Below, piece by piece: positions 6,166 to 33,659 of a DNA stretch of 35,128 nt. The stretch comes from Geobacter sp. (GTDB lineage: Bacteria; Desulfobacterota; Desulfuromonadia; Geobacterales; DSM-12255), in contig VFJK01000174.1 in NCBI GenBank assembly GCA_009886125.1, forward strand, positions 1 to 35,128, in the 5' to 3' direction. A program made the translations under genes and the position numbers. Numbering within the stretch: position 1 is the first letter of the stretch; each line of letters starts with the position of its first letter. The notes under the pieces are model-generated. The model was not told the origin of the DNA. It saw only the letters and a list, made by a program, of their open reading frames with translations, and made no database searches.

Positions 6166-7245
6166 ATGAACAAAATCGTCAGAACACTATCAAGCTTCCT
6201 GCTGCTCGGCAGTCTCGCACTCCTGGCGGGCTGTGCGACCTATGCCGACCTGCCTGCGGGGACAGTTCGTCAGACTGTCGGCAATTCAGCTTCTGCGGTG
6301 ATCGAGCGACAGACAGAGTCCCTGCCGCCGCTCGCTCCGGAGCCGGCACCTCCTGCAGAGTACCAGATAGGAACCGGCGACCTGGTTTCCATAACAGTGT
6401 TCGGCCGACCGGAACTCGGTTCAACCACCGCAAGCAGCAGTGGCGCAGCCGGTATTGGACAGTCCAGACCCTCCGGTAGCCGGGTCGATGAAAACGGTGC
6501 CGTCCGTCTTCCCCTGATAGGAAGCGTTACCGTCGCCGGCCTGACGGCAGCCCAGGCCGAGGAGAAACTCCGTACCGTCTACCGGTCACTGCTCAGGGAA
6601 CCGTGGATATCGGTAGAGGTCTCCGAACACCGGAGCCGTCCGATTTACCTGTTCGGCTCGTTCAAGAAACCCGGTGTGTTCTACATGGATCGCCCTATGA
6701 ATCTGCTTCAGGGGCTGGCCCTTTCCGAAGGATTTGACACTGCCGCTGCCCTGAGAAGCGCCCGTTTGACTCGAAACAATACGGTTCTGCCCGTTGACAT
6801 CTACGAACTGCTCGCTAACGGTGACCAGCGCCAGAACATCTGGCTCCGCTCCGGCGATGCTGTCTACCTCCCTGACAAATCCTCCCAGCAGGTGTTCGTC
6901 TTCGGCTCGGTGCAGAAATCCGGCTCTATCCCCATGACCAATGGAGAGCTCTCCCTGGCCCAGGCTATCGCCGCCTCCGATCCGCGCTACAGCGGTTATG
7001 ACTACCAACACGTCCGCATCATCCGCTCCCTCAGCCCCACCAAGGGTGAGCTGATAGTTGTCGACTTTGACAGGATAATGCGCGGACAAGCACCTCCATT
7101 CATGCTGTCCAACGGCGACATCGTCTACCTGCCGCGCAGTTCGCTGGGGAGTTGGAACGATGCCATCAATGACATATTGCCGTCACTCCAAGCCGTCAGC
7201 GCTCTCCTGCAGCCGTTCGTCAGCATCAAGTATCTCTCGAAATGA
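6166..7245 (+). CDS. wza: Outer-membrane polysaccharide export (OPX) lipoprotein, Wza-like
   Basis: The 359-residue precursor has a lipoprotein signal with lipobox LLAGC (Cys23). A Poly_export domain follows (about 65-155: YQIGTGDLVSITVFG through RLPLIGSVTVAGLT), then two SLBB domains (about 160-235, YLFGSFKKPGVF; about 243-323, VFVFGSVQKSGSIPM) and an amphipathic C-terminal helix (about 328-352). OPX proteins form the octameric periplasm-to-surface channel that works with a Wzc-type co-polymerase. A Gly/Ser/Ala-rich insert (about 85-105) interrupts the Poly_export domain. Whether the C-terminal helix can span the outer membrane by itself decides whether a separate beta-barrel such as the YjbH protein at 29567 is needed. 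Start: ATG with AGCAGGA upstream. Confidence 0.92.
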   Translation: MNKIVRTLSSFLLLGSLALLAGCATYADLPAGTVRQTVGNSASAVIERQTESLPPLAPEPAPPAEYQIGTGDLVSITVFGRPELGSTTASSSGAAGIGQSRPSGSRVDENGAVRLPLIGSVTVAGLTAAQAEEKLRTVYRSLLREPWISVEVSEHRSRPIYLFGSFKKPGVFYMDRPMNLLQGLALSEGFDTAAALRSARLTRNNTVLPVDIYELLANGDQRQNIWLRSGDAVYLPDKSSQQVFVFGSVQKSGSIPMTNGELSLAQAIAASDPRYSGYDYQHVRIIRSLSPTKGELIVVDFDRIMRGQAPPFMLSNGDIVYLPRSSLGSWNDAINDILPSLQAVSALLQPFVSIKYLSK

Positions 7246-11908: not shown

Positions 11909-13210
11909 GTGATGTTGCCAATCGGTTCCCTTTCCGCAGCTAAAAATTTTTTGTGGAACCAGGGCAATCAGATTTTAACTATCATAAGCGGCGTGTTACT
12001 GGCACGGTTTCTGGGGCCGCATGATCGGGGGCTGCTGGCTGCGGCCGTATTGTGGCCATCAATGGTTGCGAACATGGGACTGATTGGAATCCCCACTGCG
12101 GCCACCCTGCTCGTGCGCAGACATCCGGAAAAAACAGGTGAAATTGCCTCCAGCACATTCAAGGCCATAGCAGTACTTGCAGCATGTGAAGTCGTCCTGT
12201 TTTATTTTCTTTTGCCGGTGCTGATTCCGGACTCCGCAAAAGAGACGCTATCAATGGGTAGACTGTTTCTTCTGACGGTACCTATCTCGCATGTCGGAAT
12301 CATGATAACGACATTTTTTATGGCACTGGGCTGGATGAACTACAATGGCATTTTAACTTTCCTGAATACGGTGTCGTACGTCTCCTTTCTGGTGGTCTTT
12401 TGGTGTTTTGATAAAATAACCTTTTCTACTGCAATGTATGCCCTGATGGCCGGTATCATGTTGTCGACAATTGCCGGCGTCATCATGTTCATGACAAAGG
12501 TCGGCATCGTAAAAGCTACCACAAGCTGGGTTAATGTAATTAAAGACGGGCACCCGTTTTTTGTTGAGCAGGTTCTGGTCATGCTAACCAGGCAGATAGA
12601 ACAGTGGCTGTTGCTCTATTTTATGTCACCAATCGCGTTGGGGTATTATGTTATTAGTAAAAGTTACGCTGGACTTTCCGGCTCTTTAATAAATTCGCTT
12701 ACCGGCGTATATTTTTTAAAGTCAGCACATATATTCTTTGATGAAGACGGAAAAAAACAGCTTGTCAATATTTTCAAACAGTCGATCCTGGTCTTCCTAT
12801 TGCCTATCATAATCCTGATGGCTGTTGGGCCGTTCGCTATTCCTCTTATCTTCGGCGCCGCTTATTCATCATCAGTCTGTGCCGCCTTGATCCTTCTGAT
12901 TGCTATGCTGATCCAGGGTCTCTCCGATCTTTTGCTAGCTTCTCTACGCAGCACAGGGCATGCTGTCCGCGGTGGATTGCTCAGATTTCCGGCGCTCGGC
13001 ATTCTGGTTATGACAGCTCCGTTACTAATAAGACATTTTGGGATCCCAGGATGTTCAATCGCCATTCTGCTATCAACTATTACTCAACTCATTTCGGTCT
13101 TCTGGTATTTAAGCAAATTTGGTTTTTGTGTCAGTTCATTCTTTGCAATACGCAAAGAAGACATAACCATGACTTTTAATAAAATCAAGGATATCATCCA
13201 TGTACGCTAA
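11909..13210 (+). CDS. wzx: Lipid-linked oligosaccharide flippase, Wzx-like
   Basis: The 433-residue protein is almost entirely hydrophobic, with about 12-14 predicted membrane helices. It has the MATE/MOP-superfamily N-terminal pattern typical of Wzx (NFLWNQGNQILTIISGVLLARFLGPHDRG). Wzx flips undecaprenyl-diphosphate-linked repeat units to the periplasm for Wzy. Start choice is uncertain: GTG at 11909 and ATG at 11912 both fit, but neither has a good ribosome site. A strong AAGGGG (11876-11881) lies six bases before an in-frame ATA at 11888, which raises the possibility of a non-standard or lost start. Base composition is lower in GC than in wzc. It overlaps the next gene by 11 bases. Confidence 0.88.
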   Translation: MMLPIGSLSAAKNFLWNQGNQILTIISGVLLARFLGPHDRGLLAAAVLWPSMVANMGLIGIPTAATLLVRRHPEKTGEIASSTFKAIAVLAACEVVLFYFLLPVLIPDSAKETLSMGRLFLLTVPISHVGIMITTFFMALGWMNYNGILTFLNTVSYVSFLVVFWCFDKITFSTAMYALMAGIMLSTIAGVIMFMTKVGIVKATTSWVNVIKDGHPFFVEQVLVMLTRQIEQWLLLYFMSPIALGYYVISKSYAGLSGSLINSLTGVYFLKSAHIFFDEDGKKQLVNIFKQSILVFLLPIIILMAVGPFAIPLIFGAAYSSSVCAALILLIAMLIQGLSDLLLASLRSTGHAVRGGLLRFPALGILVMTAPLLIRHFGIPGCSIAILLSTITQLISVFWYLSKFGFCVSSFFAIRKEDITMTFNKIKDIIHVR

Positions 13211-16313: not shown

Positions 16314-17540
16314 TTGAATCGTTATGTTGTGGCACAACTTGGCTCCAGGATGCATTATGCCGTGCCCCGGATCTTCCAGCAATCTGGAATGCTGGAGCAA
16401 TTCTTCACGGACATTTGCGCCGTCAAGGGTTGGCCTCGCATGCTGAACGCAATTCCGAACCCTCTTCGTCCTGAGGGGCTTAAACGTCTTATGGGCAGGG
16501 TGCCGCAAGGGGTACCGCCAAAAAACATCACTGCCTTCACCTCCTTTGGCAGGGAATATGCCAAACGCCGTGCACAGGCGACATCCCCTGACGAATCAAC
16601 GGCAGCCCACCTATGGGCAGGCACAACATTCTGCGAACTCATCATAAAAAATGGGATAGGTGAGACACAGGGTATCTATACGTTCAACAGCGCCGGCATG
16701 GAATTGATGGATCACGCTCGACGTCAGGGGATAAGAACGATGATGGAACAGACAATAGCACCGTTCCGGATCGAGCGCGAAATCATGGGTATGGAGGCTG
16801 AAAGGTATCCCGGCTGGGAAAAGCCGGCAGTCTTTTCAATCACACAGTCAGATTTTGCCGCCAGGGAGGAGATGGAATGGCAGCTTGCTGACCTGATCAT
16901 CTGCGGTTCTCAATTTGTCGCCGACGGCATCGAGCATATCGGTGGGCCGGTTGAGCGGTGCGTGGTTGTCCCATACGGCGTGGATACTGTTTCCGGTGTA
17001 TCCCAACGGTCCGGCCATTCGGGGCCTTTGCGGATTCTGACAGTCGGTGCTGTGGGGCTTCGCAAAGGATCACCGGATGTTCTGGCTGCGGCAAAACTGT
17101 TAAAAGGTAAAGCTGAATTCAGGATGGTTGGCACTATTGGAGTCTTGCCGGGTGCGGAAAAGGAGTTGCGGAACGATCTGGAACTCACCGGCTCAATCCC
17201 CCGTTCGGAGATGGCGGCGCAGTTTGCCTGGGCCGATGTCTTCCTTCTTCCCTCACTCTATGAAGGATCGGCGACCGTTGTCTACGAAGCGCTCGCCGCC
17301 GGATTGCCGGTTGTCTGCACGCACAATACCGGTAGCGTGATTACTGATGGCGAGGGTGGTTACCTTGTGCCGCTCCGTTCTCCCGAAGTTATCGCAGCTC
17401 GACTGGAGCAATTGGCTTCCGACCCTGAATTGTTGCGGCACATGTCCTTGACCGCTCGCCACATAGCTGATGAATATACGGTCAACAAATACGGCGAAAG
17501 GCTACTTGCGGCGGTTACCGGGGGGGATTCGAAGTCATGA
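16314..17540 (+). CDS. Family 4 glycosyltransferase
   Basis: The 408-residue protein starts with a TTG one base after the previous stop. This start is preferred over the ATG 12 codons in because the residues between (NRYVVAQLGSR) continue into the family-like N-terminus with MHYAVPRIF. The C-terminal domain has ILTVGAVGLRKGSPDVLAAA, FLLPSLYEGSATVVYEALAAGLPVV with the EX7E pair (Glu317, Glu325), and a terminal helix region. It is a retaining GT-B enzyme acting at the inner face of the membrane. Its end overlaps wzy by four bases (ATGA). Confidence 0.9.
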   Translation: MNRYVVAQLGSRMHYAVPRIFQQSGMLEQFFTDICAVKGWPRMLNAIPNPLRPEGLKRLMGRVPQGVPPKNITAFTSFGREYAKRRAQATSPDESTAAHLWAGTTFCELIIKNGIGETQGIYTFNSAGMELMDHARRQGIRTMMEQTIAPFRIEREIMGMEAERYPGWEKPAVFSITQSDFAAREEMEWQLADLIICGSQFVADGIEHIGGPVERCVVVPYGVDTVSGVSQRSGHSGPLRILTVGAVGLRKGSPDVLAAAKLLKGKAEFRMVGTIGVLPGAEKELRNDLELTGSIPRSEMAAQFAWADVFLLPSLYEGSATVVYEALAAGLPVVCTHNTGSVITDGEGGYLVPLRSPEVIAARLEQLASDPELLRHMSLTARHIADEYTVNKYGERLLAAVTGGDSKS

Positions 17541-18946
17541 TCCTGACTTCATCGGCTACAGCCGACCTGCTCATTTTAATGATTGTCGGACTGATAGTCG
17601 TTCATTCGGTAAAGCTTATTTTTGCCAGGCGTTGGCTTCTTTTTGATCCGTTAAACACGTTCTGGGCCGGCGTATTCATCGTCTATGTGGTCCAGCCGGT
17701 TTCGTTTGCGGAGACGTTCATCTCCTGGCATCGCGACGGAGTCTTTGAAGAAACTCTATTCTGGATATTTATCGGCCTCCTCTGCGTGGTTATCGGTTAT
17801 GAACATGGCATTGGGCCGGTTCGCGAACGCATCATACCCCGGTGCCCGGATCAGCTTATTCCTTCTCATCTGGCTTTTGCCGGATATTTGCTTATTTGTG
17901 TCGGCGTTGCCGGCTATCTCTACCTGTTTGCCAGCGCGGGAGGTGCGGCAAAGTGGCTGTCAGTCGGTCGCGGTGGGACCGATTACGCCAACATAAGCGG
18001 CTACCTGGCAACGCTTGCTGATTTTCTCCCCTTGGGGGTCCTGCTTCTCCTTTTTCACGCCTCCTTTCACGACGTCACCAGACTGAAAAAAATACTTATC
18101 TGGTCCTCGGGCATTCTCATGTGGCTCTGGTTCGTCTACTTGGGGACACGAAGCCGGACCATCATGTTCACCCTGATGCTCCTTGCCGCCTATTATCTGC
18201 CCAAACGGAGAAACCCTCCGGGCTGGTTTCTTGTGGTGTCGTGTTTTTTTATTTTTATGCTGATAAATTTTCAGGCACAATACCGGGAGAAATTCACTAA
18301 TCTTTCTTTCAACCTGGACAGCATCAACATTGAAGAAGCGTACCGCCGTTCCGCACCGGGCTTTCTCGGAGGCGACACTGGAATCAACAGTAAAAATGTT
18401 ACGAGAGGGGTAGATTTCAACTGTGTGCTGTCAGTGATAGACCTGGTACCGGAAACTGTTCCGTATAACTATGGTTACGGTCACTTGGAGGTATTCACCC
18501 GCCCCATCCCTCGCGCAATCTGGCCGGAAAAAATTTATCCGAGTATGGAAGCGGCGCAGGGCGTCTTACGAGAGGCAAACCTGACGAGTACCAAGGTTCG
18601 GGGAACTGAGTTGCTTATGGGACCGGCCTTAACGTTTGCCGGTCATTGGTATTACATCGGCGGCCCCCTGGCATTAATGGCAGGAGGACTTTTTACCGGC
18701 TCGCTCCTGCGAATCATCAGAAACGTGTATGATCGGAGTGGAGGCTCGGAAGGCGATCTGATTCTCTATGTCATGCTTATCACTATCGGCTTCGGAGAAG
18801 CCGTGGCAACTCCTTTGGGATGGGTTTATTCCTTACCGCTTACTCTCCTGCCCATCCTGGTGTTGTTTGTCATTTGCAAGGTCAGAACGTCTGCAACCGG
18901 AAATCAGGACAACACCATCTTCCAATCCCGAAAGACAGGTGAATAA
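17537..18946 (+). CDS. wzy: Repeat-unit polymerase, Wzy-like
   Basis: The 469-residue protein is polytopic, with about 11-13 membrane helices and one large extracytoplasmic loop (about 240-360) that contains VTRGVDFNCVLSVIDLVPE and FTRPIPRAIWPEK. The charged loop and helix layout match O-antigen/oligosaccharide repeat-unit polymerases, which show little sequence conservation. The only polymerase candidate in the locus is therefore this gene. It polymerises flipped repeat units in the periplasm under control of the Wzc-like protein. It overlaps its neighbours at both ends (ATGA with the upstream gene, TAATG with the downstream gene). Confidence 0.85.
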   Translation: MILTSSATADLLILMIVGLIVVHSVKLIFARRWLLFDPLNTFWAGVFIVYVVQPVSFAETFISWHRDGVFEETLFWIFIGLLCVVIGYEHGIGPVRERIIPRCPDQLIPSHLAFAGYLLICVGVAGYLYLFASAGGAAKWLSVGRGGTDYANISGYLATLADFLPLGVLLLLFHASFHDVTRLKKILIWSSGILMWLWFVYLGTRSRTIMFTLMLLAAYYLPKRRNPPGWFLVVSCFFIFMLINFQAQYREKFTNLSFNLDSINIEEAYRRSAPGFLGGDTGINSKNVTRGVDFNCVLSVIDLVPETVPYNYGYGHLEVFTRPIPRAIWPEKIYPSMEAAQGVLREANLTSTKVRGTELLMGPALTFAGHWYYIGGPLALMAGGLFTGSLLRIIRNVYDRSGGSEGDLILYVMLITIGFGEAVATPLGWVYSLPLTLLPILVLFVICKVRTSATGNQDNTIFQSRKTGE

Positions 18947-24736: not shown

Positions 24737-26401
24737 ATGCCATCTATAACTCTTTTCTACATTTTTCTCACCGCCCTCTTCACGGTTCTGGTTATGATCC
24801 CGTCCATTTCAAAACTGGCGGTCGGAATCGGGATTATGGACAGGATCGATGCACGCAAGGTCCATACACTGGACACCCCCCGTCTCGGCGGGATTGCGAT
24901 CTTTTTTGCCTTCATGCTGGCAGTTATCCTCTTTGGAGAGTTCAGCCGCCAGACCCGCGGCTTTCTCTCCGGTGCTATCATAATCTTCCTCACCGGTCTC
25001 ATCGATGACATTGTCGGACTGACTCCTCAAAAAAAACTTGTCGGTCAGATCATGGCGGCTTTGGCTGCCACGACCATTGGCGGACTGCACATCAAGACCC
25101 TGGGAAACCTTTTCGGATGGGGGGAGACCCCTCTCGGCCACCTGGGGTTCCCCCTCACTATTTTAGCCATTGTGGGGATCATCAACGCGATAAACCTGCT
25201 GGACGGCCTTGATGGGTTGGCAGGCGGTGTGACTACTATTGCCACAACAGCCTTTGCCATCATTGCCTTTCTCACCGGCAACAGCCAGCTCATCGGTCTG
25301 ACTGTGGCCCTTTTGGGAGCGATCACCGGCTTTCTCAAGTTCAACACGTATCCCGCGCGGATTTTCATGGGCGACAGCGGCAGCCTGTTTCTTGGCTACT
25401 CCTTGGGAATTTTTTCCGCGATAGTCGTTGAAGGGAGTTTCGGCAGGGTAGCAGCAACAATCCCTTTCATAATCCTGTCGATCCCGGTGCTTGACACGTT
25501 ATATGTAATGTTTTCCCGGATGCGCTCTGGTAAAAATATTTTTCACGCGGACCGCACCCATGTGCATCACCGGTTCCTCGACTTTGGCTTCAGCCACAAA
25601 GCAACTGTAACTATCGTTTATAGCCTGACCTATTGCTTCAGTGTCCTGGCCATACTCTTGATAGATCTGCCCGAAAAGTATCTTCTTTCTGTCAGTCTGC
25701 TCATTTCGGTATTATTCGTTCTGACAGCAGCAGTGGGCAAACATTTCCCCGGTCCGCTGAACTCCTTGTCATTTGAGCGCCTTCTCCTCAGAAGCAACTC
25801 CCAATCACTCATGAATACGTCACACTCCCTCCTCCTGTGCAGCAAATATACCGTGATTGCTATCCTCTCTCTGGCTCTGCTCTTACCTCCTGTTTTAGAT
25901 TTCAATTCGATTACTGTTGCCGCCCTGCTGCTGGCTCTCTCTATCTCTCTCCTTTTCATGACCAAGGATTGGGGGAACCACTTTCTCCATTTCGTGTTGT
26001 ACTTTAACGGTGCCTTTCTCATCTACCTCATAGAAAACCAGGGCCGGGAGAAATTTATCGCGGAAATCTCTCTCAATACAGTTTCGCACGGACTCTTTTT
26101 CATTCTGTTTTTTATCTGTGGTATCGAGATGTTTATCAGGGTCCGAAGTGGAGAGCTGAAGGGTTCCCCCTTGGAATATCTGTTGCTTTTCATCGTCATC
26201 TCTATCCCCTTTCTTCCAGCCGACTTCATCGCAAAACACCATCTCTATACCGTGGGGAGCAAATCGGTTATCCTCTTCACAGCATACAAACAGGTCCTGA
26301 TGGACCAGGCCAATCGCAATCGGAAGATAATTGTTACGACGCTTGGAGTTCTGCTTATAGCGGTATTGAAGGGGCTGTATGAACTCTATTGGGCGAATTG
26401 A
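24737..26401 (+). CDS. WecA/MraY-type phosphoglycosyltransferase with extra C-terminal membrane domain
   Basis: The N-terminal 330 residues form a complete polyprenyl-phosphate N-acetylhexosamine-1-phosphate transferase. Asp90-Asp91 lies in LIDDIVGLTPQKK, NLLDGLDGLAGG is at 153-164, FMGDSGSLFLG is at 210-220, and the HIH-type motif is in RTHVHHRF (273-280). Such enzymes start repeat-unit synthesis by moving a sugar-1-phosphate from a UDP-sugar to undecaprenyl phosphate. No WbaP-type initiator is present, so this is the likely priming enzyme. The family is usually near 330-370 residues. Here about 220 further residues (335-554) add roughly five to six hydrophobic helices of unknown role. The ATG has only a weak ribosome site. 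The start is 156 bases after the GT2 gene. Confidence 0.9.
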   Translation: MPSITLFYIFLTALFTVLVMIPSISKLAVGIGIMDRIDARKVHTLDTPRLGGIAIFFAFMLAVILFGEFSRQTRGFLSGAIIIFLTGLIDDIVGLTPQKKLVGQIMAALAATTIGGLHIKTLGNLFGWGETPLGHLGFPLTILAIVGIINAINLLDGLDGLAGGVTTIATTAFAIIAFLTGNSQLIGLTVALLGAITGFLKFNTYPARIFMGDSGSLFLGYSLGIFSAIVVEGSFGRVAATIPFIILSIPVLDTLYVMFSRMRSGKNIFHADRTHVHHRFLDFGFSHKATVTIVYSLTYCFSVLAILLIDLPEKYLLSVSLLISVLFVLTAAVGKHFPGPLNSLSFERLLLRSNSQSLMNTSHSLLLCSKYTVIAILSLALLLPPVLDFNSITVAALLLALSISLLFMTKDWGNHFLHFVLYFNGAFLIYLIENQGREKFIAEISLNTVSHGLFFILFFICGIEMFIRVRSGELKGSPLEYLLLFIVISIPFLPADFIAKHHLYTVGSKSVILFTAYKQVLMDQANRNRKIIVTTLGVLLIAVLKGLYELYWAN

Positions 26402-26597: not shown

Positions 26598-27767
26598 ATG
26601 ATCCGGAACTTCACGGCACTTCTGCTCATATCGACTCTGGCTCTGACCTCGCCTGCCCTGGCAGGACCACAGGAGGGGGCCGCCTCCTTCAGCCTCAATG
26701 CCGGCAGCCTCATGTTCGACAAGGCCGAAAAACTTGATGACGGCCCGGTGATCGGCGTACGCCTCGGCTATGACCTGCACCGCAATCTGGGTCTGGAGGG
26801 AAGTTTCGGTTTTGTCGATACCCGCTCGAATCTCTCCGCCTCCAAACCGCAGGCATATCTGTACACCTACCGGACCGATCTGCTCTACTACCTGCTGCCG
26901 GGTTCGTCCTTCGTGCCTTTTCTGGCGGTCGGCGGCGGCATCATGAATCTGGACGGCTCCGAACTCTGGGGGAACCGGACCAGTCTCCTCCTTGAGTATG
27001 GCGTCGGCATCAAGTATTTCCTTGCCGACAACCTGGCGCTGCGCGCCGATGGCCGCAATCTCCTCTCCTTCGACAATAATCGCCATAGCCACCTCGAATT
27101 TACCGGCGGCATCAACTACTACTTCAACAAGGGGAAAAGTGCGCCGCCACAGGCAGCAGCAGCGGCAGTGATCACCCCGGCAGCGAACGAGCGCCAGGCG
27201 GAAGCCCCGAAACAGACTCAACCTGCAGCAGCTGTACAGAAGGATATCCCGACAGAGAGTAATCCCGTGAGCGCAGCAACCGTCAGCCCGGCGCCCGCGC
27301 CAGCAAGTCAACCGGCAGAGCTGCCAGCAGGACAGGCCCCGAAAGCAGCGGCATCGACTCCAGTTGCCCCTTCACCTGTCGCTGCGACGCCAACAGCCAG
27401 ACCCACCACCCCTCTACCCGCTGCTGCACCGGCTGTTGCATCTGCCTGTCCATCACCAGTGAAGATTTCCAGAATTGTTACCATCCAAAACGGCTTTGAA
27501 ATACAGTCTGATTCTCCCCTGGCACTTCCTCAGGCCATAACCCTGGCAAGCCCGCCCCGACTGGCCCTGGATATCGACTGTGCTACTTATGGCAGCGGGA
27601 ATAAATCACTGCCGTTCAACCATAGCGGGGTAACCGTGATCCGTATCGGGAACTACCCGGATAAGCTGCGGGTTGTTTTCGATGTAAACCAATCACCGGT
27701 TCCTCCCTACAAGATAGTGAAGAGCAGCCAGGGACTCAAGGTACTGTTCGGCAACTCAGCAAAATGA
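26598..27767 (+). CDS. Outer-membrane beta-barrel protein with C-terminal AMIN domain
   Basis: The 389-residue precursor has a signal peptide (1-22, ending ALA). An OmpA-like eight-stranded barrel follows (about 28-177: alternating aromatic strands such as VIGVRLGYDLHRNLGLEGSF and LRADGRNLLSFDNN, ending HLEFTGGINYYF), then a Pro/Ala-rich linker of about 100 residues and a C-terminal AMIN domain (about 284-389: VKISRIVTIQNGFEI, ITLASPPRLALDID and LRVVFDV). AMIN domains in amidases and secretins direct localisation in the periplasm. The AAGGAG seven bases before the ATG fixes the start. It is the first of three plus-strand envelope genes and follows the WecA-like gene. Barrel and AMIN calls are from pattern, not a search. 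Confidence 0.82.
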   Translation: MIRNFTALLLISTLALTSPALAGPQEGAASFSLNAGSLMFDKAEKLDDGPVIGVRLGYDLHRNLGLEGSFGFVDTRSNLSASKPQAYLYTYRTDLLYYLLPGSSFVPFLAVGGGIMNLDGSELWGNRTSLLLEYGVGIKYFLADNLALRADGRNLLSFDNNRHSHLEFTGGINYYFNKGKSAPPQAAAAAVITPAANERQAEAPKQTQPAAAVQKDIPTESNPVSAATVSPAPAPASQPAELPAGQAPKAAASTPVAPSPVAATPTARPTTPLPAAAPAVASACPSPVKISRIVTIQNGFEIQSDSPLALPQAITLASPPRLALDIDCATYGSGNKSLPFNHSGVTVIRIGNYPDKLRVVFDVNQSPVPPYKIVKSSQGLKVLFGNSAK

Positions 27768-27812
27768 TGAGTTCAGGCGTTCTGCCGACACTAACGGCAG
27801 GAGGGGATACCA

Positions 27813-29477
27813 ATGAAATACGTTAAAAATTCACTGCCGTTATGTATCAGCAAATATGTGGACTGTACACTGGCAGCAGCCTTGATTCTTGCCCTGTTTC
27901 TGACCTGCGGCTGCATGGGTGGCGGCGAAGTCGCCCCTCCGGGGGTCAATAACGGCGGCGGCAGCGGCCCTGCCGGCAAAGTCCTGCAAGGGGCGGTGTC
28001 CGGCGCCACAGTATTTGCCGACACCATTGTCGCCAACGGTCGCGGCAATATGGTCATGGACGGCACTGAGAGCCAGTACGTGACCGTGACGGACAGCACT
28101 GGTCACTTTACCCTGCCGGCAATCCCCCCCTATAGCTACATGATCGTCTCCAGCGGGGGCACTGACACCCTTTCCGGCAAGCCTGCCATAATGATGCTGG
28201 CACCGGCCGGGGCACAGAACCTCTCGGCGCTGACGACCATGGTAGCCCTTGACCCGACGATGAAGAGCAAGATCGAGATCCTGATGGGGGGCTCAAGCTA
28301 TGACTCTGACATCACCCTGGCAGTCACCCCGGCAGCCCTCATGCTTGCCAAGACCATCGAGATTTCGGTGCAGTCGCTGACAGGAGCCCTCAGCCCGGGA
28401 GGCAATACCATCTCCAACAGTCAGGTCAATGACATCCAGTTGACGACGCTGACAAACCTGGCCACCCAGATCGCCTCCCTGAACACTGCCCAGCTCTCTT
28501 CGCCGGTATCGATCCAGGCCATGGTGACGACAGCGATAACCGCCACAGCTACGGCCATTGACAGTCGCTACACCAATATAAACATCGGCAGCGCCGCAAC
28601 GGTTGCCAGCAATATAGCCGCCAGCGTGCCTATCATAGCTACCGCAATCAGCGGCTCGGCATCAGCTTCCCTGTCATTGACCGGTTCGGCCTCTGAGACC
28701 TCACAACTGCCGCCAGCTGACCAGAACACCCTGTCTGCGGCGACAAACAGGTCGATAAGCCAGAACTCCGCGACTGTTTCCGTGGCACCGCCGGCATCGA
28801 CTCCTGATACTACCGCACCGACCGTCACTGCCACCACACCGGCAGCACTTGCCAGCGGTGTTGCCCCGAACGGCAGCATTTCGGCAATTTTCAGCGAAAT
28901 GCTCGACCTTGCCACCGTGACCCAGGCAAACTTCTCCGTCAGCGGGCCGGCCGGAGCGGTCGGAGGGACCGTCAGCTGGGACGGTACCACCAAAGCGGTT
29001 TCCTTCACCGGAGCACTACCGGTAAGCAGCACTATAACAGTCACATTGAGTGGGATGAAGGATCTGGCCGGCAATACCATGACCGCCAAGAGCTGGTCGT
29101 TCACCACTGCTGCCAGCACAGACACGCTAAAACCGACGGTCAGCAGTACCACCCCGGCAGCTGCAGCTATCGGCGTCAACTCCAGCACCGTTTCTGCCCG
29201 ATTCAGCGAAGCGATGAAGAGCTCGACGCTGAACGGGGACACATTCTACCTGACGGACAACACCTCGACTCTTCTGGTTTCAGGAACTGTCTACTACGAC
29301 ATGTCTACCAGCACTATTTCATTTACGCCAACTGTCAGGCTTAACTCAGCCACTAACTACACTGCAACGATCACAACCGGCGCGAAGGACCTTGCCGATA
29401 ACCCTCTGGCCGCGGCTGTCACCTGGTCGTTCACTACGACCACGACCGGCTCATCGACTACGGTCTCCAATTTCTAA
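27813..29477 (+). CDS. Lipoprotein-like surface protein with two Big_5 (Ig-like) domains
   Basis: The 554-residue precursor has a hydrophobic segment (about 19-32) ending in FLTCGCMGGG, a poor but possible lipobox. The N-terminal part has a carboxypeptidase-like fold stretch (GKVLQGAVSGATVFADTI through FTLPAIPPYSYMIVSSGG), then a Ser/Thr/Ala-rich helical region. Two Ig-like Big_5 domains follow (about 328-432 and 436-545). Each has the signature TTPAALASGV or TTPAAAAIGV near its start, then FSEAM/FSEML, then KDLAGN/KDLADN and WSFTT. Such domains are common in secreted adhesin-like proteins. GGAGGGG precedes the ATG. A clear terminator follows, so transcription from the AMIN-barrel gene may stop here. 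Confidence 0.82.
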   Translation: MKYVKNSLPLCISKYVDCTLAAALILALFLTCGCMGGGEVAPPGVNNGGGSGPAGKVLQGAVSGATVFADTIVANGRGNMVMDGTESQYVTVTDSTGHFTLPAIPPYSYMIVSSGGTDTLSGKPAIMMLAPAGAQNLSALTTMVALDPTMKSKIEILMGGSSYDSDITLAVTPAALMLAKTIEISVQSLTGALSPGGNTISNSQVNDIQLTTLTNLATQIASLNTAQLSSPVSIQAMVTTAITATATAIDSRYTNINIGSAATVASNIAASVPIIATAISGSASASLSLTGSASETSQLPPADQNTLSAATNRSISQNSATVSVAPPASTPDTTAPTVTATTPAALASGVAPNGSISAIFSEMLDLATVTQANFSVSGPAGAVGGTVSWDGTTKAVSFTGALPVSSTITVTLSGMKDLAGNTMTAKSWSFTTAASTDTLKPTVSSTTPAAAAIGVNSSTVSARFSEAMKSSTLNGDTFYLTDNTSTLLVSGTVYYDMSTSTISFTPTVRLNSATNYTATITTGAKDLADNPLAAAVTWSFTTTTTGSSTTVSNF

Positions 29478-29495
29478 TCTGTACAGAACGTCTGA

Positions 29496-29525
29496 AAAGA
29501 GGAGGCTTTGGCCTCCTCTTTTTTT
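29496..29525 (+). terminator. Rho-independent terminator
   Basis: AAAGAGGAGGC (29496-29506), loop TTTG, and GCCTCCTCTTT (29511-29521) form a perfect 11-bp stem continued by a T-run to 29525. It sits 19 bases after the stop of the Big_5 gene. It is the strongest terminator in the window. Confidence 0.92.
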
Positions 29526-29566
29526 ATCAGCTGCTGTAATCGCCCATCTATCCGGAGTCTGCTGAC

Positions 29567-31702
29567 ATGCCCCTGACCACACCCACCCTACGCAGCTTTA
29601 CCCTGCTCTTTTTTTGCAGCTCACTCATCCTGCTGGCCGGCACTACAGTCCAGTCGGAAGAGTTTCACAATGCCCTCTCCCTGCAGGGCTTCACCGGCAT
29701 CCTCAATACACCGACTGCCACTCTGACCAGCGAGGGACATATCTATACCCTCTACTCGGATCAGAAGGAAAACTCCCTTCGCCCGCAGTTGAAACGGGAA
29801 GACAGCTATATGTTTTCCATCGGGCTCTTCGACCTGTTGGAGATGGGCGGACGCTTTACTGAAGCCCCAAGCTACAGTTACATCAATGGTGGTTTGAGGG
29901 ACCTGTCAGCCAATTTCAAGCTGCAGGTGCCGTTCATCCCAAGAGGCAAATATATCCCTCAGTTGGCAGTCGGAGCCCAGGATCTGGGCGGAAAAATAAA
30001 TTACCTGCGCACCGTTTATGCTGTTGCCACCGAAGAGATCTGGCGCTTTCGCCTCTCCGCGGGCTACGGCAACGGCCCCGACCGGATGAAGGGGGGCTTC
30101 GGCGGGGTCGAGGTAAAGACGTTCGACTGGCTTTATCTGCTCGCCGAGTACGATACCCGTGAGACGAATGTCGGCCTCCGCCTGGTGACTCCGGAGCTGT
30201 TTGGCATCCCGGTGAACCTGCAGGTGACGATCAAGTCGGCACTGAACGACAAGCAAGGGAGCCCGGAGTATGGCTTCGGCTTACAGATGCCGCTCGGCTA
30301 CGACCATCACAACCGGCAGCCATTGGCAAAAGCAGAAGAAGCTGCACCGGTTCAGAAAGCTGAGGGCTCCAGTCCAGGAGGAGTGCAGCCGGCTCTTGCG
30401 CCAGGGCAACCCGCGCCAACCGGTTCGGAGCAGACACTCAGCAGCTCGCCGGCAGCAGGAGATCGACGGGCAGCGCTGCTGGAACTCCGGGACCGCCTGG
30501 CAAAAGATGGTTTTCAGAATCTCCGCGTCGGCGAAGGTGAAGGTGGTCTGCTGGTGGTAGAGTATGAGAACGGTCGCTACACGAGCAATGAGCTGGACGG
30601 CATGGGAATTGTGGCGGGGATCGCAGCCGATATGGCTCCGACTGGATTGGACAGCCTGCGACTGGTACTGCGCAAGAAAGGAATTGCTATTTTCGAGGTC
30701 TCTGCGCCCATATCCGGCGTAAAAGCATTTATGGTAGATGCTGGCAGCGAAGAGAAGTTGCGCGATTCCATCAAGGCAACACCCGAACTGAGCGGAGACC
30801 GGGGCGTACACTTTGTGTCTGAAGCGGTCAATCCTGCCTGGCTGCGGCCGTCACTGGTGCTCTATCCAGAGCTGAAGACCTTCATCGGCATGGAGAACAC
30901 TCCGGCCGATTATCTGCTTTCCATCCGTCCCGATCTCTATCTCCCTCTCTGGAAGGGAGCGGTGGCCAATGCCCGCTTGGATTTCCCCTTGAGCTGGAGC
31001 GACAGTTTCGATGACGGTCAGCCGCTCCGCGGGAGCCGCCAGCCGAGCCAGCTCGACCGGCTGATGCTCTTCCAGGCGATCCGCCTGGCACCGACACTGA
31101 TGGCGGATATCGGTGCCGGGATGATTGTCCATGACAGCAACGGTACCCTGAACGAGCTGCTCTGGCAGCCGGGCGACGGCACCCACCGCTTCCGGCTCCG
31201 CCAGGCGTTTGCCGTCAATTCTGAGACCCATGCCCGCAATGAGGTTTATCTGGGGGCATACCGCTATCGCTACGCCCCCCTCGACCTCTCCCTTGAGGCG
31301 ACCGTCGGCCGCTTCTGGAGCAGGGATACCGGCTTTACTGTTGAGTTGAAGCGCTTTTTCGGCGACACCGCTTTTTCCATCTACTACAAGGATGTCCGTT
31401 CAGATGTAGACGAGCGAATCCATGCCGGCGGGATACAGCTCTCCTTCCCGCTTACCCTGCGAAGGGAGATGAGCCCATCGCCGGTACAATTAAAGGGGAG
31501 TGACGAGTGGAACTATGCTCAGGAGACTGAAATCACTTCCAAAGGCTCTAATCAGGTTGGACGTGCTATCGCAATAAATCCCCAGCCGGCTTTTAACCTG
31601 GGGACGGTTTTCTATAATCGGGACCGGCTGAGTGAAGCGTATCTCAAGCTGAATCTGCTCCGGCTGAGAGACGCCTATCTGCGCTATGGCCTAAGCGATT
31701 AA
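29567..31702 (+). CDS. yjbH: YjbH-family outer-membrane protein for exopolysaccharide
   Basis: The 711-residue precursor has a signal peptide (about 1-30) and the YjbH/GfcD N-terminus: LQGFTGILNTPTATLTSEGHIYTLYSDQ. Many beta strands follow, in two blocks (about 40-245 and 430-690) separated by a proline-rich linker (about 248-290) and an alpha/beta segment (about 295-420, including ELRDRLAKDGFQNLRVGEGEG). YjbH and GfcD are thought to be outer-membrane barrels serving export of the Yjb polysaccharide or group 4 capsule together with a Wza-type protein. Length is close to the Escherichia coli protein. No YjbE, YjbF or YjbG partner is seen here. GGAG lies about 11 bases before the ATG. It follows a strong terminator, so a separate promoter in the 41-base gap is needed or the terminator leaks. 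Confidence 0.88.
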   Translation: MPLTTPTLRSFTLLFFCSSLILLAGTTVQSEEFHNALSLQGFTGILNTPTATLTSEGHIYTLYSDQKENSLRPQLKREDSYMFSIGLFDLLEMGGRFTEAPSYSYINGGLRDLSANFKLQVPFIPRGKYIPQLAVGAQDLGGKINYLRTVYAVATEEIWRFRLSAGYGNGPDRMKGGFGGVEVKTFDWLYLLAEYDTRETNVGLRLVTPELFGIPVNLQVTIKSALNDKQGSPEYGFGLQMPLGYDHHNRQPLAKAEEAAPVQKAEGSSPGGVQPALAPGQPAPTGSEQTLSSSPAAGDRRAALLELRDRLAKDGFQNLRVGEGEGGLLVVEYENGRYTSNELDGMGIVAGIAADMAPTGLDSLRLVLRKKGIAIFEVSAPISGVKAFMVDAGSEEKLRDSIKATPELSGDRGVHFVSEAVNPAWLRPSLVLYPELKTFIGMENTPADYLLSIRPDLYLPLWKGAVANARLDFPLSWSDSFDDGQPLRGSRQPSQLDRLMLFQAIRLAPTLMADIGAGMIVHDSNGTLNELLWQPGDGTHRFRLRQAFAVNSETHARNEVYLGAYRYRYAPLDLSLEATVGRFWSRDTGFTVELKRFFGDTAFSIYYKDVRSDVDERIHAGGIQLSFPLTLRREMSPSPVQLKGSDEWNYAQETEITSKGSNQVGRAIAINPQPAFNLGTVFYNRDRLSEAYLKLNLLRLRDAYLRYGLSD

Positions 31703-31720: not shown

Positions 31721-32812
31721 CTATTTCACCAGCTTCAGCGACTGCTTCCACTTCAGGACAAATCCGCGTCGCAGCCCTCTATCGTTGAATCGCGTCAGTT
31801 CGTCTCCAGGGAGTATTGGTTTGAATGCCTTTCCGGACGGAAGGCGTTGGCGGCCCTTCGTGATATCACCCCCTTCAGCATCTCCTCTCACCGGATAGAG
31901 ATCGCTGTTTTGGGAGATTATCTCCTGCCCCTGCTTCGAGAGCAGAAAATCCACCCAGAGTCTGGCAGAATCCGGATTGGTCGCCCCTTTTGTGATAATC
32001 ACGCTCTGTGGTATCGCAAGAGTCTGCTCAACAGAGTAGAACCAGCCGATGGATGGGTCGCTCTTTGCCCTTCTGAACAGCTCTCCGGAAGGAATGCTGT
32101 AGGCGAACAGGGAAGAGCCTCCGGATATGCTGTCGAGCAGTGCACCGTAATCGGTAAACTGCTGGACCCCAGCCGTTCCAATCCCTTTTACCAGCGCCCA
32201 GAAATTCTTCACGCTCCACTGCTCCTGGGTAAGGTAGATCAGGGAAAGCCTGTTCTTCTCGGGATCGCATACCGCAATTTTCCCTTTGAAAACAGCGGTA
32301 CCTGCAGATTTCAACAGCTCTTTGTGTGTCTGCGGCACCTCTTGTTCGCTCAGAAGTTTTGTGTTGTATGCCATGGCAACCGGCTCAAAACCGGTGGCAT
32401 ACGCGAAATCCCCCATGTTTGCCCAGGGATAGATGTTGTCACTCTCCGCAGAGTGGTACTTTAGAGCATAATTGTCTTTCAAAAGAGCCGCCTGAAGCTC
32501 GATCTCGCTGCTCCAGAGGATGTCGGCCGACACTTTTCTCCCGCCGACATCACGCATATGCCGGCCAAAGACCTCCGTACCGCTCATATCGATATAATCG
32601 ACCTTGATCCCCGGATACTTTAAATTGAAGCCTGCCACGACCAGATCGGCGACTTTTCGGCCGACAGCACCGTAGACATAAAGATTACGCACTTTCAGAG
32701 CAGCAGCAACTACGTCGTTCCCGGTTTCAGCTGAGGACAATCCTGCGGTGGAAAGAGACACGAACAGATATAGTGACAGCGGCACGAATAATCTTTTCAC
32801 AAAAATCAGCAC
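31721..32812 (-). CDS. Periplasmic solute-binding protein (ABC-type, family 1, iron-binding-protein-like)
   Basis: The 363-residue precursor has a signal peptide (hydrophobic core about 9-22, ending SSA) and a type-2 periplasmic-binding fold: LYVYGAVGRKVADLVVAGFNLKYPGIKVDYIDMSGTEVF, VSADILWSSEIELQAALL and DFAYATGFEPVAMAYNTKLL. It resembles AfuA/Fbp-type binding proteins for ferric iron or other small ligands, but the ligand is not predictable. GTG at 32812 overlaps the stop of the REC-PilZ gene by seven bases, and a second in-frame GTG four codons in is an alternative start. No ABC permease or ATPase is present nearby, so it may serve a distant transporter or act as a sensor component. It is convergent with yjbH, 18 bases away. 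Confidence 0.85.
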   Translation of the reverse strand: MLIFVKRLFVPLSLYLFVSLSTAGLSSAETGNDVVAAALKVRNLYVYGAVGRKVADLVVAGFNLKYPGIKVDYIDMSGTEVFGRHMRDVGGRKVSADILWSSEIELQAALLKDNYALKYHSAESDNIYPWANMGDFAYATGFEPVAMAYNTKLLSEQEVPQTHKELLKSAGTAVFKGKIAVCDPEKNRLSLIYLTQEQWSVKNFWALVKGIGTAGVQQFTDYGALLDSISGGSSLFAYSIPSGELFRRAKSDPSIGWFYSVEQTLAIPQSVIITKGATNPDSARLWVDFLLSKQGQEIISQNSDLYPVRGDAEGGDITKGRQRLPSGKAFKPILPGDELTRFNDRGLRRGFVLKWKQSLKLVK

Positions 32813-33546
32813 TCTGCATGATCCTTGATTGCATTCCCGGCATGTCGGAATATAAAGTCTTTCAGTTCACCTTTCCGCAGAAAAGGAATCCCCTGCCCCG
32901 TAATCTCCAGGAATTCGATGCCGAAACCGGGTTTGTACCCGGACTCCCCGCCTGAACCGGTCCTGTTGATCCAGGCGACCCTGCCACGCACCTCCATGGA
33001 AGAATCACTGCCGGGAAGAACGAATGAAAAACTCAGCTCTTCACCCATGGGAATCAGTACTCCAGTTGCCACATAGATGCCGTTCAAGGCAATATCTTCG
33101 CTCCTTCCCTGAAAGGTGGCTCCGTTGTGGGTCAGCCGGACCTCGGCATGAAGCGGTACGCGAAAGCTGCGCCGCTCAATGGCAGGCAGGAATTTTTTTA
33201 TCGTCTCCAGGAAAACTTTCCCGTCGAGAGGCTTTGAAAGGTAGTCGCTGCATCCGGCCCGATTGTATTCATCCAGGTCTGCGGGTTTTGCAGCATTACT
33301 GACCATGATAACCGGTATATGCTTCAGTTTCGGATCTTCCTTTAAGGCGGCGCAACAGGTTACACCGTCCATTCTGGGCATGTACCTGTCCATAATGATA
33401 AGGTCCGGGAACTCCCTCCTGGCTACATCAAGCGCCTCTGCACCGTCTCCGGCTGTCAGGACATGCACCATGGAAGAGGCCAGATATTTCTTCTGTATCT
33501 CCAGAAGAAGTTTTACATCATCAACCAGAAGGACCTTGTGCATCAT
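32806..33546 (-). CDS. Response regulator receiver domain fused to PilZ domain
   Basis: The 246-residue protein has an N-terminal REC domain (about 1-118) with acidic pocket Asp9-Asp10, phosphoacceptor Asp53 in LIIMDRYMP and Lys105 in YLSKPLDG. The C-terminal PilZ domain starts at ERRSFRVP, giving the RxxxR c-di-GMP motif (Arg125, Arg129), and has DIALNG (Asp151-Gly156) where the usual D/NxSxxG serine is alanine. It can thus respond to a histidine kinase and possibly to c-di-GMP. No kinase is beside it. The start at 33546 is preferred because GGAG lies six bases upstream; an ATG at 33558 has no site. It lies between the tolC-like and solute-binding genes on the same strand. Confidence 0.9.
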   Translation of the reverse strand: MMHKVLLVDDVKLLLEIQKKYLASSMVHVLTAGDGAEALDVARREFPDLIIMDRYMPRMDGVTCCAALKEDPKLKHIPVIMVSNAAKPADLDEYNRAGCSDYLSKPLDGKVFLETIKKFLPAIERRSFRVPLHAEVRLTHNGATFQGRSEDIALNGIYVATGVLIPMGEELSFSFVLPGSDSSMEVRGRVAWINRTGSGGESGYKPGFGIEFLEITGQGIPFLRKGELKDFIFRHAGNAIKDHAEC

Positions 33547-33659
33547 ATGAGGCTCCATAACAGTGAATCAACTAGATATGTTACGGAAGAAATTTACCAG
33601 TATGGATCATACTGTGTCAATGACATTAGGGAAGGCATCCGGGGAAGTCCGGCGCTGTT

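Follow-up and report, generated by a model that had tools for sequence, protein, structure and literature searches.

A conserved gene pair of YjbH and a tailed lipoprotein

Within a stretch of 35,128 nucleotides from Geobacter sp. (GenBank assembly GCA_009886125.1, contig VFJK01000174.1; hereafter the window), an outer-membrane protein of the YjbH/GfcD family is encoded behind a lipoprotein in a sugar-polymer locus, and a comparison across genomes revealed that these two genes form a conserved unit marked by a short C-terminal tail of the lipoprotein that is rich in glycine, threonine and serine. An initial annotation of the window had read three consecutive envelope genes behind a priming enzyme as one candidate export or anchoring module. 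All three open reading frames were confirmed at their coordinates on the + strand, and Pfam confirmed the domain types assigned to them: an AMIN-barrel, a Big_5 lipoprotein and YjbH. The real conserved unit, however, is the pair of YjbH and lipoprotein and not the trio. The lipoprotein gene (27813–29477, + strand) encodes 554 amino acids with two Big_5 domains (Pfam, 4.4e-38), and its product, further characterized by alignment and an AlphaFold2 (AF2) model, is the candidate partner of YjbH. The yjbH gene (29567–31702, + strand) encodes a double beta-barrel of 711 amino acids that scores 95.5 bits on PF06082 (curated cut-off 24).

Among the 147 genomes covered by the search of relatives, 26 possess YjbH, the window genome included; the protein was not found in any of three genomes of the same genus, and a PF06082 search retrieved none from 16 selected relatives that had previously given no protein match. 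Reading the genes next to yjbH in 20 relatives, we found an adjacent exported protein that varies in its core and ends in a Gly/Thr/Ser tail (e.g. TGATGGTGGSTGGTGINF and TGSTGGTGGTGGTGPNF). For counting, a strict motif was used, [TS]G[STAG][ST]G[GSAT], which had to fall within the final 24 residues of a neighbour within 1.2 kb of yjbH. A contig scan yielded 75 YjbH loci from several groups, some on contigs already represented among the first 20, and the count covers 79 loci, the window being excluded. A tailed neighbour, usually a lipoprotein, is present in 61 of these 79 loci, and the motif occurs in none of the 848 other open reading frames of the loci, nor in any of the 330 with a hydrophobic N-terminus. 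The loci are phylogenetically clustered, with the tailed neighbour present in 42 of 46 from Burkholderiales, 19 of 27 from Desulfobacterota/Acidobacteriota (one Acidobacteriota record) and none of six from Gammaproteobacteria and Campylobacterales, four of which lie at contig edges. Eight of the misses in the whole set have such a position, and shorter or differently spaced lipoprotein tails are found among the misses as well (L096, L101 and L105).

The tail is the conserved feature, and the folded core behind it is exchangeable. Single-sequence comparison sorted 34 partners into nine core clusters, some of which profile methods would merge, and since about nine clusters carry tails, common descent of a single core does not suffice to explain the tail. 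When five whole genomes were scanned for TGxTGG near the end of long open reading frames, the YjbH neighbours of G035, G073 and G094 were recovered, plus one other, a long uncharacterised open reading frame of G094 with a TGTTGG-type tail away from yjbH (L191, G094:C1:1971276).

Homologues of the N-terminal part of the window lipoprotein adjoin yjbH in five genomes (G009, G051, G052, G121 and G129). The sole genome without YjbH that matches this part is G141, which is rated complete and has no PF06082 protein; its locus reads WecA, galE, a 364-amino-acid exported protein that may be a barrel, the lipoprotein homologue and an OmpA-type barrel. This homologue is tail-less and serves as a natural control, albeit a single case. 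The exported protein next to it in this locus (locus L254, G141:C42:5000-14898) has no Pfam match. As a further observation on the neighbourhood of the pair, PEP-CTERM proteins are encoded upstream of yjbH, beside the lipoprotein gene, in L046, L050 and L051, a hint of an exosortase-linked polysaccharide system.

Tails in an independent sample and in E. coli

An independent sample of 274 Gammaproteobacteria was searched with the Burkholderiales genome G147 as its centre, and tails were assessed visually and from their proportion of Gly/Ser/Thr in addition to the strict motif. YjbH occurs in 18 of the 274, G147 being one of the 18. Tailed lipoproteins adjoin YjbH in L248, L250, L252 and L253, and small exported proteins consisting of a hydrophobic segment and a Gly/Ser/Thr tail do so in L236, L237, L240, L241, L245, L246 and L247; the YjbE-type protein of L237, for example, ends in ..STGTTGTTGTN. 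At L235, L238, L239, L242, L243 and L251 no tailed neighbour was seen. YjbE and GfcA of E. coli belong to the small type and possess comparable Gly/Thr/Ser tails, that of GfcA being rich in threonine. GfcA is called entirely uncharacterised in a passage of PMC11494523.

Absence of YjbF and YjbG

The initial annotation had noted that the usual YjbF and YjbG partners are missing, which is borne out at the level of the whole genome, where neither PF11102 nor PF06251 has a match. YjbF/GfcB (PF11102) was detected in none of the 28 YjbH genomes searched, the window genome included, and YjbG/GfcC (PF06251) was found neither in the window genome nor in 22 other Geobacterales genomes searched. Among the YjbH genomes, the GfcC domain appeared solely inside two fusions of about 810 amino acids with an outer-membrane polysaccharide export (OPX) domain, both from Oxalobacteraceae-type genomes. 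No small YjbE/GfcA-like gene lies between the neighbouring genes in the window; the tail resides on the lipoprotein, in degenerate form. The module of YjbH and lipoprotein probably stands in for YjbF/YjbG. Of the two unusual proteins that had been proposed to replace the YjbEFG partners, the lipoprotein beside YjbH is indeed widely conserved, whereas the AMIN-barrel recurs independently.

Architecture of the lipoprotein and of YjbH

The lipoprotein comprises a signal peptide, a lipobox with Cys34, a CarboxypepD_reg-like beta-sandwich with a helical bundle (residues 51–282), two Ig-like Big_5 domains and the tail. Cys34 (codon 27912–27914, + strand, within L-T-C-G-C) is an invariant alignment column across 17 homologues and would be the lipidated residue; the window lipobox TCGC is slightly atypical, and most relatives carry a good lipobox. 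Sandwich and helical bundle are well predicted in the AF2 model, which also contains the Ig domains and leaves the tail disordered. By alignment with the homologues, the tail encompasses the last 14 residues (29433–29474, + strand, within ..TTTTTGSSTTVSNF), and its TGSSTTVSNF is a degenerate form of their TGxTGG. For the N-terminal domain, a similarity was found to the part of PgcA that binds no heme, its non-heme domain (E 2.9e-05; Z 8.1); PgcA is a Geobacter cytochrome that has been reported outside cells (PMC5732950). Matches of the lipoprotein elsewhere fall mostly on its common Big_5 domains, which are an optional add-on to the conserved tailed lipoprotein. Both this optional status and the conserved tail had escaped the initial annotation.

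YjbH is modelled as two barrels of 12 and 13 strands joined by a middle domain, an architecture that matches the GfcD reference as outlined in PMC11494523; a search for sequence relatives of YjbH in the PDB found none. The N-terminal barrel (residues 58–242; 29738–30292, + strand) is followed by the middle domain (residues 295–405; 30449–30781, + strand) and the C-terminal barrel (residues 429–656; 30851–31534, + strand), whose fold is OmpG/CymA/FadL-like. The best-scoring solved match of the N-terminal barrel is FapF (Z 16.0, root-mean-square deviation 3.5 over 194 residues, model residues 31–243), and the barrel is also close to the KdgM (Z 14.4) and COG4313 (Z 13.9) channels. FapF is presented in PMC6173800 as the exporter of the Fap polypeptide.

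The polysaccharide locus and the neighbours of the pair

Recognised polysaccharide genes lie near 42 of 80 YjbH loci, as judged with single-sequence queries over short flanks, and 21 of the 80 have a priming enzyme gene no more than 2.5 kb from yjbH. The recurrence of the module beside such loci, which the initial annotation had proposed to test, holds often but not always for YjbH and the lipoprotein, while the AMIN-barrel is not a third member. An OPX gene is found at a distance of up to about 30 kb from yjbH in the window genome and in G020, G035, G051, G052, G073 and G115, but not near yjbH in G039, G076 and G094. Two Desulfobacteraceae loci (L087 and L094) contain a large OPX-type gene of about 1,100 amino acids that is divergent from yjbH across a gap of less than 400 bases.

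In the window itself, the priming enzyme upstream of the trio (24737–26401, + strand) is a WecA-like/GT4-type glycosyl-1-phosphate transferase (PF00953, 4.9e-44) that matches the NCBIfam WecA model below its cut-off. The locus had been assigned to the Wzx/Wzy type, of which the Wzx-type flippase is present (11909–13210, + strand, PF01943), whereas the presumed Wzy (17537–18946, + strand) is weakly supported, with a sub-threshold TIGR04370 score of 27 bits (cut-off 40) and no Pfam match. The Wza/GfcE-type OPX protein (6166–7245, + strand) is class-1-like, having the class 1 layout of Poly_export, SLBB and a C-terminal Wza_C segment in Pfam; it can be aligned to E. coli GfcE up to residue 349 of 359, and a GfcC module (PF06251) was not found in it. 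Glycosyltransferases, a Wzc-like bacterial tyrosine kinase (BY-kinase) and CpsB/CapC complete the locus upstream of the trio.

Between the lipoprotein gene and yjbH lies a perfect 12-bp hairpin with a U-rich 3′ side (29495–29522, + strand), and the segment 29475–29566 folds at -28.9 kcal/mol (z = -3.0); the hairpin is absent from the list of the consensus scan. It is a possible intrinsic terminator or attenuator; in that case lipoprotein would be produced in excess over YjbH, which is what a cargo role would predict. Riboswitch control of the module was rejected, as no Rfam match lies nearby in the window or in five related loci.

Convergent to yjbH is a gene for a periplasmic solute-binding protein of the SBP_bac_6/8 family (31721–32812, - strand), and in G009 (L033/L076) the gene for a homologue immediately precedes those for the tailed lipoprotein and YjbH, in the same orientation. 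Beside the module, a response regulator receiver fused to a PilZ domain (32806–33558, - strand) suggests a possible link to cyclic di-GMP.

Possible role of the pair and alternative explanations

We consider it moderately probable that YjbH and its dedicated tailed lipoprotein form an outer-membrane module in which the tail docks in, or threads through, YjbH, with the lipoprotein at the polymer exit. In recurring on changing cores, the tail resembles a signal for addressing or docking. The lipoprotein would be delivered to the outer membrane, where its tail would enter YjbH, probably the FapF-like N-terminal barrel; it might then be held or threaded at the channel and either be displayed outside or be kept as a gate or plug. 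So placed, it may help to pass, hold or tether the Wzx/Wzy polymer of the locus, and its tail would correspond to that of YjbE/GfcA, the small proteins encoded by operons of the E. coli type. A role of the pair in polymer export or anchoring is plausible. It is also possible, if doubtful, that YjbH/GfcD proteins are tail-recognising protein exporters whose N-terminal barrel takes the TGxTGG tail of the lipoprotein or of YjbE/GfcA and displays the protein at the cell surface, where it would serve the polysaccharide as scaffold or tether. For the FapF-like half of GfcD, export of a polypeptide has been suggested in a passage of PMC9603273 that names no substrate, and concrete candidates for such a substrate are now at hand in YjbE/GfcA and the tailed lipoprotein.

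Several observations weigh against the docking model. The AF2 model of YjbH is of moderate quality, with a predicted local distance difference test (pLDDT) score of 73, and since the N-terminal barrel also resembles the uptake channels KdgM and COG4313, its FapF-like fold is no proof of polypeptide export. The degenerate tail of the window lipoprotein fails the strict motif, as do eight Desulfobacterota/Acidobacteriota loci, of which two are contig-edge cases and three encode a lipoprotein whose TG end is shorter (L084, L095 and L101), while L034, L077 and L094 have no tailed neighbour. Moreover, the motif was defined after inspection of the first 20 loci, hence the Burkholderiales loci and the later gammaproteobacterial sample are the fairer test. 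Tails of low complexity can also evolve more than once. In about half of the YjbH loci, no polysaccharide gene was recognised in the flanks, and, given the hairpin between them, the lipoprotein gene and yjbH may not be strictly co-transcribed.

Rather unlikely, in our judgement, is a periplasm-facing lipoprotein that replaces GfcB/GfcC as an accessory at the inner leaflet and plugs or gates YjbH with its tail, so that the polymer alone, or a lipid-anchored polymer via the C-terminal barrel, would be exported. In E. coli, GfcD is bound by GfcC and by GfcB, which is itself a lipoprotein (PMC8592465), and both are missing here with the lipoprotein in their place; furthermore, a passage of PMC11494523 proposes a lateral gate for lipid-anchored polysaccharide in the C-terminal barrel of GfcD. 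The same 13-strand barrel is modelled in the window YjbH. However, an accessory subunit with a fixed role would hardly be expected to have cores of such diversity, and GfcB (2IN5) is not among the structure matches listed for the lipoprotein, although these lists are crowded by Ig-like matches to Big_5. We also counted against an accessory the Big_5 domains, which are usual in surface or secreted proteins.

Attachment of the polysaccharide to the Thr/Ser-rich tail, with the lipoprotein anchoring the polymer to the outer membrane, appears improbable. Threonine and serine do occur in tails of all types, including that of E. coli GfcA, and most partners have a lipobox; in addition, E. coli colanic acid is described in PMC8117528 as anchored independently of WaaL through an unidentified anchor, with mutations in the yjbEFGH operon stimulating the phenotype. 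Yet glycine is conserved in the motif to the same degree as threonine, many YjbH loci are without a recognised polysaccharide gene nearby, and no dedicated oligosaccharyltransferase was identified.

The contiguity of the trio in the window had suggested one export or anchor complex of three proteins, and in G121 and G141 a barrel with OMP_b-brl and OmpA domains likewise adjoins the lipoprotein homologue. The AMIN-barrel of the window (26598..27767, + strand) is an OmpA/OprF-type barrel (OMP_b-brl, 3e-15) with a C-terminal AMIN domain (4.4e-08). Full-length AMIN-barrels are encoded in G017, G024 and G084, each time in a polysaccharide locus and without YjbH, and the order in G084 (glycosyltransferase, hexapeptide protein, glycosyltransferase, WecA, AMIN-barrel) is that of the window minus lipoprotein and YjbH. 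Conversely, G094 (L039) has WecA, the tailed lipoprotein and YjbH in a row without an AMIN-barrel, and the sole other neighbour matching the AMIN-barrel query among 80 loci is the OmpA-type barrel of L085. The window hence joins two modules that occur independently, and the AMIN-barrel is a separate, optional envelope gene of polysaccharide loci outside the YjbH pair. A conserved three-gene module was rejected on these grounds, and a complex of the three proteins is very improbable. That the pairing is a meaningless coincidence of common lipoprotein genes and common low-complexity ends is hardly credible, for although barrel-domain and Big_5 matches turn up anywhere in the genomes of most relatives, the tail is confined to YjbH neighbours in the 79-locus count, across several groups and with an independent sample in addition.

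Relation to known systems and significance

With the E. coli group 4 capsule operon gfcABCDE-etp-etk, the window shares a GfcD-type double barrel of 12 and 13 strands, an OPX protein, a BY-kinase and an exported protein with a Gly/Thr/Ser tail, which is GfcA there. In contrast to that operon, the window genome is without GfcB and GfcC, its tail, which is degenerate, belongs to a large lipoprotein of several domains, CpsB/CapC takes the place of Etp, and a full Wzx/glycosyltransferase locus lies on the same contig. E. coli yjbEFGH likewise combines YjbH with a tailed protein (YjbE), whereas the window has, instead of YjbF and YjbG, a lipoprotein with no detected similarity to YjbF. The Fap system is akin in the fold of the N-terminal barrel and in a flexible small-residue polypeptide encoded next door, but FapF has a single barrel and a coiled coil and assembles as a trimer, YjbH is accompanied by a lipoprotein, and the likeness is structural only. 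With Slam/TbpB, the pair has in common the concept of an outer-membrane barrel dedicated to one lipoprotein; the Pfam scan of YjbH, however, matches PF06082 only and no Slam family, recognition would rely on a tail at the C-terminus, and translocation is hypothetical here. The 18-strand porins of Myxococcus, which are paired with class-3 OPX proteins (PMC9603273), also place a separate barrel beside a Wzx/Wzy-type locus, though this barrel belongs to another family and the window OPX protein is class-1-like. A tailed lipoprotein linked to YjbH was not found described in the literature passages returned by our search.

According to PMC11494523, no group of outer-membrane proteins with multiple barrels is larger than that of the GfcD homologues. 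They are linked to capsules and exopolysaccharides. The pairing gives this widespread, poorly understood barrel a concrete candidate partner, perhaps its cargo, and suggests how YjbH can work without YjbF/YjbG. If the tail does direct export, YjbE and GfcA would gain a function, and the tail would define a new type of C-terminal signal, one for crossing the outer membrane.

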